64,000 bases of DNA from the NCBI RefSeq assembly GCF_003605195.1, contig NZ_QYOS01000019.1:124001-188000 (forward strand), read 5' to 3'. Both the position numbers and the translations under genes were made by a program. The stretch's first letter is position 1. The number at the start of each line of letters is the position of its first letter. Origin of the DNA: Aurantiacibacter odishensis. GTDB taxonomy: Bacteria; Pseudomonadota; Alphaproteobacteria; Sphingomonadales; Sphingomonadaceae. Positions 17,382 through 45,749 of this stretch are shown here, one piece after another. The notes below the pieces were generated by a model that was given only the letters and a program-made list of their open reading frames with translations, had not been told where the DNA came from and searched no databases.

Positions 17382-17545
17382 GTCAGCAACTTACGTGGAA
17401 ATTTCCCAATTCGATCCTTTGCTTGCGACAAACCGGCCCGAAAAGGCGGTGGGTTGACTTTCGCTGGTCCGATTTCACGCAGTAACGCTTTAGAATTAAG
17501 GATTAATAGCTAGTCGTTATAGCTGATTACCGGCAAGATTCACGA

Positions 17546-26139: not shown

Positions 26140-26637
26140 ATGCGGCAGGAAGGCGAACCGTCGGTCGAGGAGATCCTCGATTCGATCAAGCGAGTGATTG
26201 CGCGCGACAATTCCGAGGCCGCAGCGCAGGCCACCAAGGCGCGCCGCCGTGAAAATCTGGTCTCCCGCAACGAGGAAACCCAGCCGCAGGAAGAGGACGT
26301 GCTCGACCTCAGCGTCATCGGTTCGGCCCTTCACGAGGATGGTGCTCACGAGGATAGTGCCGAAGATGCGCTGATCGAAGACGACGAGAACGAGGAAGAA
26401 AGCCTCACCACCGATCGCGCCGCCGAAGCCATGCGGCAGTCGCTCGCCGCGCTTGCCATGCTGTCCGATCCCCCCGCCAAACCACAGATCGTCCGATCCG
26501 GCGAGACCTCTCTCGAAGGCATGGTGCGCGAGATGATGCGGCCGATGCTGGCGCAGTGGCTTGATGCCAACCTGCCCGAGATCGTCGAGCGGCTGGTGAA
26601 GGCCGAAATCGCCCGTATCGCCGGGAAAAACCGCTGA
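26140..26637 (+). CDS. popZ: PopZ-type cell-pole organising protein
   Basis: The 165-residue protein has the PopZ layout: an N-terminal amphipathic helix ([18 protein letters not shown]), an acidic disordered middle rich in D/E (about 50-90), and C-terminal helices ([20 protein letters not shown] then [19 protein letters not shown]) that drive oligomerisation. In Caulobacter, PopZ forms polar condensates that hold ParB-parS. Here parA, parB and parS lie 14-19 kb away. The overlap with the next frame is CTGA (see the ferredoxin entry). Confidence 0.88.
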
Positions 26638-34419: not shown

Positions 34420-34994
34420 CGCGGCAATTCCCCGAGATCGCGCAATGCGCCCAGAACGGGCAGCAGCGGCATTCCCAGCACGGTGAACTGGTCGCCCTCG
34501 ATGCTCTCGAAAAGTTGTGGCCCGCGCGCTTCTATCCGGAACACGCCAACGCAATGGCCGACCTCTGGCCACTCGGCATCGAGGTAGTGCGCGATGAAGG
34601 CATCCGACAGGTCTCGGACTTTCAGATGCGCGGCGGCGGCATGGCGCCACACCACTTCTCCTCCGCGCGCCAGTGCCGCGGCGGAATGCAGGTGCATCGT
34701 CTTGCCGGAGAAGAAGCGCAGGTGCTCGGCGGCCTCGTCTCGGCTCGCGGGTTTGTCGAATCGCCCGCCGCCAGCCACCACGAGCGAATCGCTGCCCAGC
34801 ACGGGCCGCGAAGGTTCGGCGATGGCGAGAGCCTTGGCCTCCGCCAGCGCGATGGCGACCGCATCGGGCGCGGCGCCCACCATCCGCGCTTCAATCGCGC
34901 GCTCGTCCAGATCGGCTGCCTGCGCCTCGAACACCACGCCAGCCGCTTCCAGCATCGCCCGGCGCGATGCGGACTTGCTTGCGAGCACGATCAT
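34416..34994 (-). CDS. maf: Maf-like nucleotide pyrophosphatase
   Basis: The 192-residue protein has the Maf hallmarks: [17 protein letters not shown] at the start, DLDERAI, the [20 protein letters not shown] block, then [15 protein letters not shown]. The family hydrolyses modified or canonical nucleotides and is linked to septum control. The symbol follows the region's standard name. It overlaps aroE by 4 nt and PPSR by 4 nt. Confidence 0.93.
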
Positions 34995-35863
34995 ATCGGC
35001 TTCGTACCGCTTTGCCGGTCGCGGCTCGTCCCTTGCCGCGCTTCGCGCTCCTGGTAGAGCTTGATGATCGCCGCAGCCGTCTCCTCGATGGAGCGGCGCG
35101 TGACATCAATTACCGGCCAGCCGTTGTCTGCAAACATGCGCCGGGCGAAGGCGATTTCCTTGCTGACCTTTTCCTCGTCGACATAGGACGTCTCGGTCTT
35201 CTCGTTGAGCGACAGAAGCCGGTTGCGGCGGATCTGGATCAGGCGGGCAGGGGCCGTGGTCAGCCCCACGACCATCGGCCTCTTCAGCTTGAACAGGAGG
35301 TCCGGCGGAGGGCTTTCCACCACCAGCGGGATATTGGCGACCTTGTAGCCGCGGTTGGCAAGATAGATGCTGGTCGGTGTTTTCGATGTGCGAGATACGC
35401 CCGCCAGCACGATATCGGCCTGCTCCCAGTTGTCCCATGCTATCCCGTCGTCATGGGCGATGGTGAACTGAATGGCATCGACGCGTTCGAAATAGGCCTC
35501 GTCCATCTTGTTCTTGCCGCCGGGCCGACCGTGCGCTTCCTGCCCCAGCCTTTCCTCCAGCGCCTCGACCACGGGATCGAGCGCGGCAACGTGCGGCAGG
35601 CCTTCCTGGCGGCAGAAGTCCTCGAGCCGGTCCCGCGTCGCTTCGTTGCTCAGCGTGTAGAGGACAAGGCCGGGATTGGCCTTGAAGTCGTCCACGATCC
35701 GCTCGAGGTGCTGGACCGAGCGAACCATCGGCCAGAAATGTCGCTGCACCTCGGCATCGCCGAACTGGGCAAGGGCGGCCTTGGCCAGCATTTCCAGCGT
35801 TTCGCCGGTGGAATCGGACAGGAGGTGGAGGTGCAGTGTCGCCATGTGGATATCTGCTGGCAT
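34991..35863 (-). CDS. Pyruvate, water dikinase regulatory protein (PPSR-type kinase/phosphatase)
   Basis: The 290-residue protein is a bifunctional threonine kinase/pyrophosphorylase of the DUF299 family that controls PEP synthase or pyruvate phosphate dikinase by ADP-dependent phosphorylation. The P-loop [15 protein letters not shown] (about residue 155) and the early [14 protein letters not shown] are diagnostic. ATG 35863 is used; an ATG six codons later (35845) is equally family-like, and TGTGGATAT, a DnaA-box-like site, lies in this start region. It is the first leftward gene beside the predicted origin. Confidence 0.93.
35845..35853 (-). other. DnaA-box-like site
   Basis: Leftward it reads ATATCCACA, one mismatch from TTATCCACA. 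It overlaps the start region of the PPSR gene. Confidence 0.5.
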
Positions 35864-36077
35864 AAACCACGGGAGCCTTTCGGGGACAAGCTGTTGGTGG
35901 ACTTAGCCCCCGGTCAGAACCGGAATCGCAAGCCGAGTCATGGACAGGGCAGCCCGGTTCTGGACAGGCTGGGGATATCGGGGAGAAGTGTCGTTTGACT
36001 CGGCAACATCCATGAGTCGCGCTCGCGCAAATGGGTTCTCAAGCCGGGAGAATTCGGGCAGGGACACGCAATCCCCG

Positions 36078-36086
36078 TAATCCACA
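36078..36086 (+). other. DnaA-box-like site
   Basis: TAATCCACA differs from TTATCCACA at one position and lies 22 nt from the AT-rich stretch, which is the usual spacing between a DnaA site and the unwinding element. Confidence 0.55.
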
Positions 36087-36108
36087 GGGCCAACAACGTC
36101 CTGAATCC

Positions 36109-36136
36109 TTCTTAATATATATATTTATTGTTTGAT
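36109..36136. other. AT-rich candidate DNA unwinding element
   Basis: The run TTCTTAATATATATATTTAT and the following TGTTTGAT are almost free of G and C in a GC-rich genome, immediately before the hemE start. It may also hold the hemE promoter -10 region. Confidence 0.6.
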
Positions 36137-36147
36137 TGGACTCTTCG

Positions 36148-37164
36148 ATGCCCGGATGTCTCCTCGATACGCTTGTCAGCCAGCCGAGCCAGAAACGCCC
36201 CGTCTGGTTCATGCGTCAGGCTGGCAGATACCTTCCCGAATATCGCGATCTGCGGGCGCAGAAGGGCGGCTTCCTCGAACTTGTCTACGATAGCGAGGCC
36301 GCGGCCGAGGTGACGATCCAGCCGATCGACCGCTTCGGCTTCGACGGCGCGATCCTGTTCTCCGATATCCTGATCGTGCCCTACGCCCTGGGGCAGGACC
36401 TGTGGTTCGAAGCAGGCGAGGGACCGCGACTGGCCCCTCCGCTGGTCGATGGGGCCTGGGAAGGGCTGGAACAGGCCTTCCAGCGCTTCGATGCCGTCTA
36501 CCGGACCGTGGCCCTGGTGAAGGAGCGTTTGGGCCCTCAGACCACCCTGCTGGGCTTTGCGGGCTCGCCCTGGACCGTGGCGACCTACATGGTGGCGGGG
36601 CAGGGGTCGAAAGACCATCACGCGGCGCGCAAGCTTGCATACCGCGATCCGGCGGCATTCGCATCGCTGATCGGCGCGATCGAGGCGGCGACCATCGAGT
36701 ACCTGATCGGGCAGATCGACGCGGGCGCGGAAGCCGTGCAACTGTTCGACAGCTGGGCGGGTTCGCTTTCCCCGGCGCAGTTCGAGCAGTGGGTGATCGC
36801 GCCCAACGCCCGCATCACCGCGGCCTTGCACGAAAAGCGTCCAGGCATCCCGGTAATCGGATTCCCCAAGGGTGCCGGTGCGAAACTGCCTGCCTACGCC
36901 CGTGAGACCGGGGTGGACGGCCTCGGCATCGACGAGACACAGGATCCGTCGTGGATTCACGCCCAACTTCCCGCAGGTCTGCCTGTGCAGGGCAATCTCG
37001 ATCCGCTGCTGTTGTTGGCTGGCGGCGAAGCGTTGGACGGCGCGGTGCGCCACATCCTTTCCGCCTTTGCGGACCGGCCGCATATCTTCAATCTCGGCCA
37101 CGGGATCGACAAGGAGACGCCGATCGCCCATGTCGAGCATGTTCTCAAACTGGTGCGCGGCTGA
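36148..37164 (+). CDS. hemE: Uroporphyrinogen decarboxylase
   Basis: The 338-residue enzyme decarboxylates uroporphyrinogen III to coproporphyrinogen III in heme synthesis. RPVWFMRQAGRYLPEYR near the N-terminus is the family signature, and the substrate residues in AILFSDILIVPYALG and GFAGSPWTVATYMVAGQ are intact. ATG 36148 is used; a TTG four codons earlier is less likely. It is the first rightward gene from the predicted origin, and hemJ follows 38 nt later. Confidence 0.97.
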   Translation: MPGCLLDTLVSQPSQKRPVWFMRQAGRYLPEYRDLRAQKGGFLELVYDSEAAAEVTIQPIDRFGFDGAILFSDILIVPYALGQDLWFEAGEGPRLAPPLVDGAWEGLEQAFQRFDAVYRTVALVKERLGPQTTLLGFAGSPWTVATYMVAGQGSKDHHAARKLAYRDPAAFASLIGAIEAATIEYLIGQIDAGAEAVQLFDSWAGSLSPAQFEQWVIAPNARITAALHEKRPGIPVIGFPKGAGAKLPAYARETGVDGLGIDETQDPSWIHAQLPAGLPVQGNLDPLLLLAGGEALDGAVRHILSAFADRPHIFNLGHGIDKETPIAHVEHVLKLVRG

Positions 37165-40197: not shown

Positions 40198-41469
40198 ATG
40201 GACACCATTTTTGCGCTTTCCAGCGGGCAGCCGCCTGCCGGGATCGGCGTGATCCGCGTAACCGGGCCCCAAGCCGTCGTCGCTTTGGAGACGATCGCGG
40301 GCAGGGTGCCCGAGCCCAGACGGGCGACGCGGGCGGTCTTCCGTGATGTTTCACGTGAAACACTTGATGACGGCCTGGTCGTGTTTTTTCCCGGCCCGAA
40401 GTCCGTGACGGGCGAAGATCTCGTCGAATTCCATTGTCACGGCGGTCGTGCTGTAATTGCCGCTGTAGAGAGCAGTCTCGGCGAAATCGCAGGATGCAGG
40501 CGAGCGGAGCCTGGGGAATTCACGCGCCGTGCCTTTGCAAACGGACGGATCGATCTGTCAGAGGCAGAAGGCCTTGCAGACCTTCTATCCGCCGAGACAG
40601 AAATCCAGCGCCGCAGCGCCATGGCCATGATGGGCGGAGCGTTGTCGCGGCGAGTCGAAGGATGGCGAGAAGAGTTGCTTCGCCTTTCTGCTCAGGTTGA
40701 AGCGGTGCTCGATTTCGACGACGAGGATGACGTCGCAGCGTTGCCTGTATCATTCAATCGATCGCTAAGTTCCTTGCACACGGCGCTTTGCGACGCGCTC
40801 GAAGCACCCTATGCCGAGACACTGCGCGAAGGCTTTCGTGTCGCACTGGCTGGGCCGCCCAACGCCGGAAAGTCCACCCTATTCAATGCGTTGGTGGAAA
40901 GCGAGGCTGCGATAACGGCGGATATAGCGGGCACGACCCGCGATATCTTGAGCCAGTCGGTCGCAATTGCCGGAGTGCCGTTCACCTTTGTCGATATGGC
41001 TGGTCTTCGTGATGAGAGTGGAGACCAGATCGAAAACATCGGTATCGCTAGGGCGCGCGATGAAATCGCCAAGGCAGACTTGGTCCTCTGGCTGGGCCCG
41101 GAGGGAGAAGGGCCGGAAGGATCCTGGGAGATTGCGGCGCAGGCGGACCGAGAGAAGTTACATAAGACCGAGTCCGATTTCCGGGTGTCCGCAGTCACGG
41201 GGCAGGGCATGGACAGTCTGCGAGAGGCGCTACTGGAAACGGCGCGGTCTGCTATGCCCCGGCACGGCTCGGCCGCGCTCAACGCTCGCCAGCGTGATCG
41301 TCTGGCCGAGGCTGCTCGTGCACTGGCAGCCGCGCAGGAAGAAGACGATCCTCTGCTGGTCGCCGAGAACCTGCGGCGCACGCGGCAGGCATTCGATGCG
41401 CTGGTCGGCAGAACCTCGACGGAAGACGTTCTTGATGCGCTCTTCGGACGGTTCTGCATCGGTAAATAG
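40198..41469 (+). CDS. mnmE: tRNA modification GTPase MnmE
   Basis: The 423-residue protein with MnmG makes the 5-carboxymethylaminomethyl group at U34 of tRNA. The formyl-THF domain (to about 115), helical parts and the C-terminal CIGK are present, as are G1 (GPPNAGKSTLFN), G2 and G3 (DMAGLRD). The G4 motif NKxD is not found: the region reads LWLGPEGEGPEGSWEIAAQ followed by AD. The gene contains a perfect parS site at 40347-40362. It leads mnmE-mnmG-rsmG-parA-parB. Confidence 0.95.
   Translation: MDTIFALSSGQPPAGIGVIRVTGPQAVVALETIAGRVPEPRRATRAVFRDVSRETLDDGLVVFFPGPKSVTGEDLVEFHCHGGRAVIAAVESSLGEIAGCRRAEPGEFTRRAFANGRIDLSEAEGLADLLSAETEIQRRSAMAMMGGALSRRVEGWREELLRLSAQVEAVLDFDDEDDVAALPVSFNRSLSSLHTALCDALEAPYAETLREGFRVALAGPPNAGKSTLFNALVESEAAITADIAGTTRDILSQSVAIAGVPFTFVDMAGLRDESGDQIENIGIARARDEIAKADLVLWLGPEGEGPEGSWEIAAQADREKLHKTESDFRVSAVTGQGMDSLREALLETARSAMPRHGSAALNARQRDRLAEAARALAAAQEEDDPLLVAENLRRTRQAFDALVGRTSTEDVLDALFGRFCIGK
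40347..40362. other. parS site, exact consensus
   Basis: TGTTTCACGTGAAACA is a perfect 16-bp ParB-binding palindrome of the chromosomal type, inside mnmE. It is the strongest member of five sites. Confidence 0.95.
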
Positions 41470-41471
41470 CC

Positions 41472-41487
41472 TGTTCCATGTGGAACA
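41472..41487. other. parS-like site
   Basis: TGTTCCATGTGGAACA deviates from the consensus at three positions (one is the variable position) and lies in the gap between mnmE and mnmG. Confidence 0.7.
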
Positions 41488-41510
41488 TATGAGTTAGAGG
41501 GCCTGTCGAA

Positions 41511-43364
41511 ATGCAGCATTTCGATGTCATAGTTGTAGGCGGCGGCCATGCCGGCGCTGAGGCCGCTGCCGCCTCTGCGCGGGCGGGTGCGAATACCGCG
41601 CTGGTGACCTTCGATACAAAGGCGCTGGGCGCGATGAGCTGTAATCCGGCAATCGGTGGTTTGGGAAAGGGGCACCTCGTGCGCGAGGTCGACGCGTTCG
41701 ACGGTCTTCTGGGCCGCGCCGCGGATGCTGGTGCGATTCATTACAGGATGCTCAACCGGTCGAAGGGTAGCGCCGTACAGGGACCGCGCGTTCAGGCCGA
41801 CCGCAAGCGCTTCCGTGTCGCTGTCCAGGCCATGCTGGCGGCGCAGGATAACCTAAAAGTGATCGAGGGCGAAGCCGCGGAGCTCATCCTTCGAGGTGAA
41901 TGCGCCGAAGGTATCAGACTTGCAGACGGATCCGAGATAGCGGGCGGGGCGGTCGTGCTTTGCACGGGCACATTCCTAGGCGGCACGCTCTTCCGCGGAG
42001 AGGAACGCTTCGAAGGTGGTCGGATCGGCGAGAATGCGGCGAAGAAGCTCGCGGATCAGCTGCGCGGTGCCGACTTGCCGATGGCGCGATTGAAAACTGG
42101 CACGCCGCCTCGGCTCGATGGCAGGACGATCGACTGGTCGCGGTTGGAGGAGCAACCCTCCGACGCCGATCACTGGACGATGTCTGCGCTCACCGAGCGA
42201 CGACTGAATCCGCAGGTGTTTTGCGCCATCACCCGTACGAACAGCCGGTCGCACGACATAATCGCGCAGAACCTGCATCGCTCACCCTTATTTACCGGTG
42301 CGATCGGTGCTGCGGGTCCGCGCTATTGCCCTTCCATCGAAGATAAGATCCATCGCTTCGCAGACCGCGACGGCCATCAGGTTTTCCTTGAGCCCGAAGG
42401 TCTGGATACGCATCTGGTATACCCCAATGGGATCAGCACCTCACTTCCCGTAGACGTGCAGGAAGCCATGCTCCGCACGATGGCCGGGCTTGAGAATGTC
42501 GCCATGGAAGTGCCGGGTTATGCCGTGGAGTACGATCACATCGATCCGCGTGCGCTCGGACAAGATCTGCAGCTGAAAGCGATTCGCGGTCTCTACTGTG
42601 CGGGCCAGATCAACGGCACGACAGGGTACGAGGAAGCAGCGGCGCAGGGCCTGATTGCCGGGCTGAGTGCTGCGTGCAAGGTCCTCGACCGCGCTCCGCC
42701 CTCGATCGACAGAACGAACAGCTACATGGCGGTAATGATTGATGATCTGACGCTACATGGCGTGAGCGAACCTTATCGCATGCTGACCTCGCGGGCGGAA
42801 TACCGGCTGCGCCTGCGCGCCAACAATGCTACGTCTCGGCTCACACCGATCGCAATTGAGGCCGGGACGGTGGGCGAAGAACGCTCGAGATGGTTTGCTC
42901 GTCGTGAGGCAGAGCGTTCCACGTGGAACGCCGAACTCGAGAAGACGGTAAATGCGACGGAACTTGAAGATGCAGGTCTCGCCGTCAAGAGAGATGCTGG
43001 CCGCAAGTCGTTAATGGAATGGCTCGCTCTGCCCGATATTACCATGAGCGACCTGAAGCCATGGCTCTCGTCCGCTTGTGATTCCAGCTCGCCGCTGGCG
43101 GATGAGATCACGGAGGACGCGGCCTACGCACCCTATCTCGCTCGCCAGGAAGCCGAATTGCGGGATCTTCGTAGCAGTCAGCAACTTGCAATTGCTCCCG
43201 ACTTTCCGTTCGCTGAGGTTCCGGGCTTGTCCAACGAGATGATTGAACGCCTGTCGGCTGCACAGCCGCGTGACCTCGCTGCGGCAGGACGGATTAGGGG
43301 AATTACGCCCGCCGCCCTTGCAGCCTTGCTTGTTCACGCGAAACGTCGCAATCAAGCCGCATGA
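41511..43364 (+). CDS. mnmG: tRNA uridine-5-carboxymethylaminomethyl enzyme MnmG (GidA)
   Basis: The 617-residue FAD protein partners with MnmE. The FAD motif [11 protein letters not shown] (residue 10), [13 protein letters not shown], and the later [20 protein letters not shown] are all intact. The C-terminal helical part that contacts tRNA and MnmE is present. The stop overlaps the rsmG start (ATGA). A parS-like palindrome lies at 42915-42930 within the gene. Confidence 0.97.
42915..42930. other. parS-like site in mnmG
   Basis: CGTTCCACGTGGAACG is a perfect palindrome with the parS core GTTCCACGTGGAAC; the end bases are C and G instead of T and A. Confidence 0.75.
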
Positions 43365-43990
43365 TCGAGGGCGAAGAGCAGGCGAGGGAATTCAGCGCCA
43401 AACGTTGTGAAGCGGGAGGGATGGAGCGACTGAATCGGTTCATCCCCATGCTCGTGGCCGAGAATGAGCGGCAGAACCTGGTCTCCAAGCCGAGCCTTCA
43501 GAGCGTTTGGACACGGCACATCGCCGATAGTCTTCAACTCTGGGATCATGTTCCACGTGAAACATCAGGGCCATGGCTCGATCTGGGTACAGGCGCGGGC
43601 TTTCCGGGATTGGCTCTCGCTCTTGCGAGACCTGCGCTCCCGATCATTCTCGTCGAATCGCGCAAGCGCCGGGTTGAATGGCTGGAAAGCATTTCATCCG
43701 AGTTCGACCTCAAGAACTGCCGCATCATGGGATGTCGGCTCGAAAGTGTGGATACTCTTGAATCAGGCGTAATCACCGCGCGCGCCTTCGCTCCGCTAGG
43801 TAAACTTCTCGAGTTATCCGCGCGCTTTTCCACACGCTCCACCACATGGTTGTTGCCCAAAGGGCGTTCGGGGGCGATTGAATTAGCAGAGCAACCTTCG
43901 GCGATTCGAGCGATGTTCCACGTGGAACAATCCGCAACCGATCCATCCGCCGGAATTCTGGTCGGTAAAGGGAGGCCCGCACTTCGATGA
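43361..43990 (+). CDS. rsmG: 16S rRNA m7G527 methyltransferase RsmG (GidB)
   Basis: The 209-residue methyltransferase has the SAM motif [16 protein letters not shown] (about residue 72) and the RHIADSLQL and [11 protein letters not shown] blocks. It methylates 16S rRNA; loss gives low-level streptomycin resistance in many bacteria. It is coupled to mnmG and parA by ATGA overlaps. Two parS sites lie inside it, one at each end of the coding region. Confidence 0.95.
43549..43564. other. parS site in rsmG
   Basis: TGTTCCACGTGAAACA matches the degenerate consensus TGTTNCACGTGAAACA in full. Confidence 0.92.
43914..43929. other. parS-like site near the end of rsmG
   Basis: TGTTCCACGTGGAACA is a perfect palindrome that deviates from the consensus only at the symmetric position 12. 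Confidence 0.85.
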
Positions 43991-44763
43991 TCGTCATAGC
44001 CATAGCCAACCAGAAGGGCGGGGTCGGAAAGACGACCAGCGCCATCAATATTGCGACAGCCATGGCTGCGAGCGGGTGGCGCACCCTGCTGATCGACCTG
44101 GACCCGCAGGGCAACGCCTCGACCGGTGTCGGCCTTGCGGCCGCTCAGCGCGATATGTCGAGCTATGACGTGCTGGTGGATGAGGCCACCGTCTCCGACT
44201 GTGTAGTTCCCTCCACGATCCCGGGCCTCGACCTGCTACCCGCGACCGTTGATCTCAGCGGTGCGGAAGTCGAGCTTGTCGGAGTGGAGGATCGCACCAA
44301 CAGGCTCAGGAGGGCACTTGCCAGCCATCAGGGCCACGACATCTGCTTCATTGACTGTCCGCCGTCGCTCGGGCTGCTTACCCTGAATGCGCTTTGCGCT
44401 GCTGACACGCTGCTGGTGCCCCTGCAGTGCGAATTCTTTGCGCTGGAGGGCCTCAGCCAGCTTCTCCAGACTGTCGAGCAGGTGCAGCAGCGCTTCAACC
44501 CGGACCTCGGCATCATCGGCATCGCGCTCACCATGTTCGACCGGCGCAATCGCCTGACGGACCAGGTTTCCGACGACGTGCGCGAGTGCCTCGGCGATCT
44601 GGTGTTCGAATCTGTCATCCCGCGCAACGTGCGCCTGTCGGAGGCGCCCAGCCACGGGCTGCCTGCATTGATCTATGACCATTCCTGCCCCGGCAGCCGC
44701 GCCTACATGGCGCTGGCACGCGAGCTGATCGGTCGACTGCCCGAAGAGAGGAAAGCGGCATGA
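43987..44763 (+). CDS. parA: Chromosome partitioning ATPase ParA
   Basis: The 258-residue deviant-Walker ATPase has ANQKGGVGKTTSAINIA at the N-terminus, the DLDPQGNAS and CFIDCPPSLGLLTLNAL switches and the C-terminal DNA-binding lysine/arginine patch region. ParA moves ParB-parS complexes toward the new pole on the nucleoid. It overlaps rsmG and parB by 4 nt each. Confidence 0.97.
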   Translation: MIVIAIANQKGGVGKTTSAINIATAMAASGWRTLLIDLDPQGNASTGVGLAAAQRDMSSYDVLVDEATVSDCVVPSTIPGLDLLPATVDLSGAEVELVGVEDRTNRLRRALASHQGHDICFIDCPPSLGLLTLNALCAADTLLVPLQCEFFALEGLSQLLQTVEQVQQRFNPDLGIIGIALTMFDRRNRLTDQVSDDVRECLGDLVFESVIPRNVRLSEAPSHGLPALIYDHSCPGSRAYMALARELIGRLPEERKAA

Positions 44764-45749
44764 GCGAAGCCAAGAAAGCCGCCAGCGACGCTGCGACGCG
44801 TACCCCCGCCAATCGTCGCAAGCTGGGGCGTGGCCTCGGCGCGCTAATGGGTGACATGAAGCGGGAAGAGCCGTTGGTATCGCCGCGCGCGGCAACGGGC
44901 AGCGGTGCTGACCAGGACGGAAATTCCATCGCCGCCTCACGCACCGACGGTCTGGCGATGTTGGCGATCGCCGATATCGAGCCGCACCCGGATCAGCCTC
45001 GCCGTTACTTTGATGACGAGGCGCTGGCGGAGTTGGCCGCTTCCATTGCTTCGCGCGGCGTTATCCAGCCTGTCATCGTGCGTCCCATGGCACCGGGCAA
45101 ATACCAGCTGGTGGCCGGTGAACGTCGCTGGCGCGCCTCGCAGAAGGCACAACTACATGAAATCCCTGCAATAATCCGCGAGCTTGATGAGCGCGACGTC
45201 ATGGCGTTGGCGCTCATCGAGAATATCCAGCGCGAGGACCTGAACCCGGTCGAGGAAGCGCGCGCCTACCAGCGCCTGTCCGAGCTCGAGGACATGACGC
45301 AGGCCGAGATTGCTGGCTTGGTCGAGAAATCGCGCAGCCACGTTGCCAATCTGCAGCGCCTGCTATCCCTGCCGGAGAAGGTGCTGGACCATCTTGAGGC
45401 AGGACATCTCGACATGGGGCATGGCCGCGCCCTGATCGGACTGGATAACGCTGCAGAGCTGGCCGACAAGGCGGTGAAGGAAAAGCTCTCGGTCCGTGAG
45501 GTCGAGAAGCTCGCGCGCAAGGCCCGCAACGGAAGCGAAGCTCCGGTGCGCCGCAAGGCGCGTCCGCCGCGCGACCCGGCGCAGGATGCGGACATTGCAG
45601 CGGTCGAGAACCACCTCGAGGAGTTTCTCGGCTTGCCGGTGAAAATTGCAACGGACGAAGATCCACGTTCCGGCACAGTCACGGTGCGGTTCAGGACGCT
45701 GGATCAGCTCGACCTGATATGCCAGCGCCTGACCGGGGGGGGGATATAG
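44760..45749 (+). CDS. parB: Chromosome partitioning CTPase ParB
   Basis: The 329-residue protein binds parS and slides as a CTP clamp. The ParB/Spo0J motifs are visible: PHPDQPRRYFDDEALAELAA (box I), VAGERRWRASQKA (box II), ALIENIQREDLNPVEEARAY (box III), a helix-turn-helix near 190 (MTQAEIAGLVEKSRSHVANL) and a C-terminal dimer part. The last codons contain a run of nine G (45735-45743). The five parS sites lie 0.8-4.4 kb upstream. Confidence 0.97.
   Translation: MSEAKKAASDAATRTPANRRKLGRGLGALMGDMKREEPLVSPRAATGSGADQDGNSIAASRTDGLAMLAIADIEPHPDQPRRYFDDEALAELAASIASRGVIQPVIVRPMAPGKYQLVAGERRWRASQKAQLHEIPAIIRELDERDVMALALIENIQREDLNPVEEARAYQRLSELEDMTQAEIAGLVEKSRSHVANLQRLLSLPEKVLDHLEAGHLDMGHGRALIGLDNAAELADKAVKEKLSVREVEKLARKARNGSEAPVRRKARPPRDPAQDADIAAVENHLEEFLGLPVKIATDEDPRSGTVTVRFRTLDQLDLICQRLTGGGI

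Follow-up and report, generated by a model that had tools for sequence, protein, structure and literature searches.

The intergenic gap between the divergent genes PPSR and hemE of Aurantiacibacter odishensis is, judging from sequence, very probably the single chromosomal replication origin (oriC), of the type known from Caulobacter and sphingomonads. The gap lies in a stretch of 64,000 nucleotides (hereafter the window), corresponding to positions 124001-188000 of contig C23 (227 kb) in a 25-contig draft genome of 3.19 Mb. The initial annotation had placed oriC between these two genes, and this proposal was supported by the conserved gene order and gap, by the proximity of parS-like sites and by the GC skew of a relative, so that the case for an origin draws on conservation, parS, skew and synteny and not just on DnaA boxes. 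For Caulobacter an origin beside hemE is already established, and in Sphingomonadaceae one has been predicted (PMC1914354, PMC4741004, PMC4059872); what is new here is another hemE-type origin, without the CtrA sites of the Caulobacter origin (Cori). The likely origin of this genome is thereby fixed, and the parS/parAB cluster makes sense beside it.

Conservation of the PPSR-hemE gap

The best 80 of a longer list of hemE matches, obtained by searching genome contigs, were sphingomonad-type loci, and in 76 of these 80 PPSR and hemE were divergent and separated by 281-437 bp. Gap counts refer to 77 gaps, namely those of the 76 relatives (the L028 gap start being extrapolated from a partial PPSR match) and the window's own; all 77 were aligned, as were 21 of them, chosen as close relatives. 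The four loci without a PPSR match (L032, at a contig end, L046, L051 and L055) were omitted. Near-consensus DnaA boxes (consensus TTATCCACA) occurred at least once in 73 of the 77 gaps and at least twice in 54, the density on this contig predicting 0.02 per 303 bp. Moreover, in 72 gaps the AT-richest 30-mer began no more than 100 bp from hemE, and TGTGGA was present in the first 90 bp in 62. The box beside the AT-rich stretch was not universal, being missing from several Sphingomonas gaps; 34 of the 77 gaps have TCCACA no more than 140 bp from hemE. L046, L051 and L055 are sphingomonad hemE loci with no PPSR match in the fetched flank, and their origin may have undergone rearrangement.

The arrangement was also found in the wider class, where 132 of 210 genomes (own included) gave a PPSR match. 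Among 80 loci fetched from these, mostly better-scoring and two of them from the window's family, 71 had a divergent hemE about 343-760 bp upstream of PPSR, the orientation being confirmed in all 71; the nine dropped loci had no hemE match in the roughly 900 bp fetched upstream of PPSR.

parS sites and GC skew

When the whole genome was searched for the parS palindrome, allowing up to two mismatches, 16 places were returned. Four of them, at 164348-167928 of C23, have a CACGTG core, three being perfect palindromes and the one at window position 43550 one base off; the other twelve have two mismatches each and no such core. The distance of the four CACGTG-core sites from the gap is 4-8 kb. Similarly, three relatives (G001, G003 and G004) carry exact parS sites in mnmE-rsmG, a few kb beyond hemE and rho.

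Skew could be followed only at contig level in the genome itself, because the assembly is a draft; minima in relatives were taken from interpolated samples after mean subtraction. In G016, a one-contig genome of the same family sampled as 20 stretches of 20 kb, the cumulative GC-skew minimum fell at 2.210 Mb and PPSR at 2.209 Mb, which at a true resolution of about 85 kb places the minimum in the sampling interval containing PPSR. Shuffling the order of the stretches reached this amplitude in 0.35% of cases (p 0.0035). Among 40 stretches sampled from Erythrobacter sp. NAP1, the minimum (2.795 Mb) was 118 kb from the gap (2.677 Mb), and the maximum about 1.5 Mb from it; without mean subtraction the minimum moved to the scaffold start, and one sampled stretch (L134) contains 5000 N.

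DnaA boxes, the AT-rich stretch and a probable promoter function

The gap is bounded on its left by the PPSR start, which was set at an inner ATG (codon 35845-35843), since the PPSR proteins of relatives matched from there; the longest open reading frame (ORF) begins at 35863. The initial annotation had delimited the origin as 35864-36147. Its right border stands. The left one was drawn from the longer PPSR ORF and for that reason cut off the one-mismatch box ATATCCACA at 35853-35845, so it should be moved to about 35845. The two DnaA-box-like nonamers seen within the narrower limits were found again, namely TAATCCACA, with one mismatch, and ATATCCCCA (35978-35970, minus strand), with two; the reported W-box-like TCCCCA is real and forms part of ATATCCCCA. 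More TCCCC cores are located between the two end boxes. The Poisson probability of two one-mismatch boxes within one given 303-bp gap is about 2e-4. The AT-rich stretch that had been described is the lowest-GC 30-mer of the window, and the lowest-GC 50-mer, at 36099 (28% GC), also falls inside the gap; the 100-mer at 36077 (42%) ranks second to that at 17454 (40%). A DnaA-trio unwinding motif was looked for by eye beside TAATCCACA, and its published form, 3'-GAT-5' (PMC8287927), did not clearly recur there.

It is improbable that the gap serves solely as a conserved divergent promoter region of its two flanking genes, with DnaA boxes that, if bound, would regulate them. Such a reading accommodates TTGTCC-N17-TTTATG, which reads into PPSR, and the DnaA box abutting the PPSR start codon, but it leaves unexplained the AT-rich element that lies beside hemE in 72 of the 77 gaps, the skew minimum of G016 and the experimentally identified Caulobacter origin in the same gap (PMC1914354). 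Since the promoter-like motif reads into PPSR and a DnaA box abuts its start codon, a promoter function is likely to exist in addition to an origin. The motif, of which the form ATAAACCA was exact in 30 of the 77 gaps, is a probable PPSR promoter by its conservation and spacing and, because it has a DnaA box at the PPSR start codon, DnaA may repress this gene.

Alternative positions of the origin

A position a few kb to the right, in mnmG-rsmG-parAB, where a second pair of DnaA-box-like nonamers lies among the parS sites, is very improbable. It would agree with the near-consensus boxes that rsmG carries at roughly the corresponding site in G001 (two), G004 (two) and G003 (one), and with the 100 bp at 43674 (48% GC, twelfth-lowest in the window); skew is too coarse to separate sites 8 kb apart. 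The pair, however, lies in coding sequence and outside the window's 12 lowest-GC 30- or 50-mers. Moreover, in G002 (Sphingomonas phyllosphaerae FA2) the mnmE-parB block is inverted and lies about 12 kb beyond rho, which puts parS some 16-19 kb from the gap; the moved block has no near-consensus box, while the PPSR-hemE gap holds three perfect copies of TTATCCACA. Therefore, the boxes go with the gap there, and not with parAB. Constraint on the encoded protein, or a DnaA site close to parS, may account for the rsmG pair.

An origin at dnaA or elsewhere on another contig would be in keeping with the location of dnaA on contig C19, with a draft assembly that leaves room for another skew minimum and with the Novosphingobium PP1Y origin predicted near hemE and a dnaA gene (PMC4059872), but C23 carries all four of the parS-like sites with a CACGTG core, and this is the least probable placement. 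In this order, dnaA is described as not conserved close to the origin (PMC8116508).

Several observations weigh against an origin between PPSR and hemE. The strict motif TTWTNCACA was not found in the gap, and two further 300-bp stretches of the 227-kb contig also carry two near-consensus boxes; with three such stretches in total, boxes alone do not single out the origin. Four of the 77 gaps, including that of G003, have no near-consensus box, and the NAP1 gap has one; among the four loci without PPSR, such boxes occurred upstream of hemE only in L051 (86 bp could be examined in L032). The cumulative GC-skew check called for in the initial annotation gave a divided answer: besides the agreement of G016 and the offset of NAP1, the minimum of the contig itself lies at window position 26514, 9.5 kb off and on a noisy curve, its TA and keto skews do not point to the gap, and in G002 the minimum (3.055 Mb, with the gap at 3.071 Mb) has a non-significant amplitude (shuffle p 0.17). 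Skew in G016 also turns negative again in the second stretch rightward of the locus.

Proposed mechanism of initiation

From the sequence elements, their conservation, the parS linkage and the skew in a relative, we infer DnaA binding, unwinding, helicase loading and bidirectional initiation at this gap. DnaA-ATP would first occupy the two better boxes at the gap ends and then, cooperatively, the weak central TCCCC boxes. The DnaA oligomer beside TAATCCACA would open the AT-rich stretch just upstream of hemE, where the helicase would be loaded, and two forks would exit in opposite directions, one through PPSR and one through hemE. The sister origins would then be separated by ParA together with ParB bound to the nearby parS cluster.

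Gene neighbourhood and other conserved blocks

The outward gene orientation reported on both sides was confirmed, PPSR (PF03618 match) being on the minus and hemE (PF01208 match) on the plus strand (Table 1). To the left of PPSR lie, in order, maf, aroE, coaE and a dnaQ-like exonuclease gene; to the right of hemE lie a UPF0093 gene, which we take to be hemJ, rho, mnmE, mnmG, rsmG, parA and parB.

Recurring blocks were sharp among the 21 close relatives and looser across all 77 gaps. From the left end to the middle, these were TGTGGA, GCATAAACCACGGGA, CAGGCTGGGGATA and TTGAC with GANTC, followed further right by GGAGAAATCGGGCAG, ATCCCCG with NNWTCCACAGG, GCCAACA (GCCAAC in 38 of the 77) and the AT-rich stretch. 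At the central weak boxes, a block CAGGCTGgGGAtA was visible in both alignments, with CAG[GC]CTGnG[GA]A in 40 of the 77 gaps. The TTGAC-N-GANTC stretch was considered as a sigma-70 promoter, and no conserved -10 was seen by eye at 17 bp in the 21-row alignment. A further block in the middle of oriC, around GGGAGAATTCGGGCAG, matches no DnaA, CtrA or GANTC motif.

Table 1. Features of the predicted origin and its surroundings (window coordinates)
Feature	Position	Strand	Basis or remark
Predicted oriC gap	35845..36147 (~302-303 bp)		Between PPSR inner ATG and hemE ATG
PPSR (kinase/pyrophosphorylase, Kinase-PPPase; COG1806/DUF299)	34991..35863	-	PF03618 match; likely start 35845
hemE (uroporphyrinogen decarboxylase, URO-D)	36148..37164	+	PF01208 match
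Predicted DnaA box ATATCCACA	35845..35853	-	1 mismatch to TTATCCACA; abuts PPSR start codon
Probable PPSR promoter, TTGTCC (35889-35884), 17 bp, TTTATG (35866-35861)	35861..35889	-	21-row alignment blocks
Six GANTC sites	35923, 35935, 35997, 36014, 36103, 36139 (span 35923..36143)		Motif count in gap
Central weak predicted DnaA boxes	35965..35986	-	ATATCCCCA 35978-35970 and TCCCCG 35984-35979
TTGAC (35995) with GACTC (35997-36001), then GAGTC (36014-36018)	35995..36018		Two most recurrent GANTC places
Conserved block around GGGAGAATTCGGGCAG	36038..36061		Both alignments
ATCCCCG, then DnaA box TAATCCACA	36071..36086	+	Alignment of 21 close relatives, box search
Predicted DnaA box TAATCCACA	36078..36086	+	1 mismatch to TTATCCACA; beside AT-rich stretch
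Conserved GCCAACA	36089..36095		Between DnaA box and AT-rich stretch; both alignments
AT-rich probable duplex unwinding element	36108..36137		13% GC; window's lowest-GC 30-mer
Four parS-like sites, CACGTG core	40348, 42916, 43550, 43915 (span 40348..43928)		mnmE-mnmG-rsmG; genome-wide pattern search
DnaA-box-like pair inside rsmG, GTATCCACA and TTTTCCACA	43747-43755; 43826-43834	-; +	Box search
parA and parB	43987..45749	+	Domains AAA_31/CbiA and ParB_N/HTH_ParB/ParB_C

An excess of GANTC sites

The gap holds six GANTC sites, against five in the densest other 300-bp stretch of C23. Over the 77 gaps, the mean was 4.64 per gap and 1.23 in shuffles of single bases, not dinucleotides (3.8-fold), the strongest excess among 16 motifs of like form, of which the next reached 1.55-fold. 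GANTC density was 13.7 per kb in the gaps, compared with 2.0 in the flanking DNA and 1.86 in a set of 67 other ORF-free gaps, and two columns were recurrent, at about 35996 (45 of the 77 gaps) and at 36014 (42). GATC was not enriched (1.38 per gap vs 1.29 expected). Blocking of near-consensus DnaA boxes by GANTC was not favoured, as the two overlapped at 2 of 342 sites in the gaps having a box, a count for which no chance expectation was computed. The form GANTCC[AC]C, with 15 sites in 15 of the 77 gaps, may touch weak DnaA boxes.

The own genome has a gene for a CcrM-like protein with a RAMA domain, and a GcrA gene. Across the 71 gaps of the wider class the GANTC excess, again over single-base shuffles, was milder than in the sphingomonad-type gaps (1.93-fold). 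It was 1.83-fold where the genome had a CcrM match (61 genomes) and 2.32-fold in the remaining 10 (Mann-Whitney p 0.08), although ccrM may be absent from some of these 10 because their assemblies are incomplete. The excess does not follow ccrM in these gaps; that it results simply from CcrM was therefore rejected, and a role of methylation is unproven. The rarity of overlap between GANTC and near-consensus DnaA boxes also counts against such a role, as does the statement that CcrM is dispensable for initiation in Caulobacter (PMC6090056, citing Gonzalez 2014). GANTC-rich repABC origins, and the occurrence of several GANTC sites in the origin of Caulobacter, have been published (PMC3973325, PMC6090056); a GANTC array in sphingomonad origins was not found named in the titles or abstract openings of the papers listed, which is no proof of its absence from the literature. 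It is conceivable, if doubtful, that the recurrent GANTC array in the middle of oriC acts as a cell-cycle gate in sphingomonads, in whose origins CtrA sites are almost always missing, with CcrM methylation limiting firing to once per cycle and the full or half methylated state being read by GcrA or another reader and not by DnaA-box blocking.

Comparison with known origins

The origin of E. coli comprises clustered DnaA boxes of mixed strength, an AT-rich duplex unwinding element and a clustered adenine-methylation motif. The gap described here resembles it in all three respects, with GANTC in place of GATC; it differs in that GATC is not enriched and GANTC seldom falls on near-consensus DnaA boxes.

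Caulobacter crescentus Cori sits between hemE and a COG1806 gene (PMC1914354), CC0001, the counterpart of PPSR (COG1806/DUF299). Both origins thus have the same flanking genes, and they also share an AT-rich region and moderate and weak classes of DnaA boxes (PMC1914354, PMC4468827). The gap is 404 bp in Cori and 302 bp here. Five CtrA sites with the consensus TTAA-N7-TTAA are known from Cori (PMC1914354), whereas none was found in the window's gap with up to one mismatch, and the exact motif occurred in 1 of the 77 gaps (L072); control by CtrA was set aside because these sites are lacking. The Caulobacter-type G-box TGATCCACA was present in 0 of the 77 gaps. Two one-mismatch matches to an IHF consensus were found in the gap, and at least one in 44 of the 77, counts made without a chance control. 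A GANTC excess is common to sphingomonad-type origins, and CtrA sites are almost always missing from them, which raises the question of what gates initiation; in S. melonis, of the same order, loss of CtrA did not harm growth (PMC8116508).

The narrow features of Cori, CtrA sites and G-boxes, are thus missing, and several of a hemE-type oriC are present: a divergent COG1806/hemE gap, several predicted DnaA boxes, an AT-rich element and a nearby parS cluster. A close likeness is found in origins predicted near hemE by Ori-Finder/DoriC in Sphingopyxis granuli TFA and other Sphingomonadaceae (PMC4741004). The predicted TFA oriC, in another genome, shares with the one described here its location beside hemE, the conserved gene order, DnaA boxes and a duplex unwinding element (PMC4741004).
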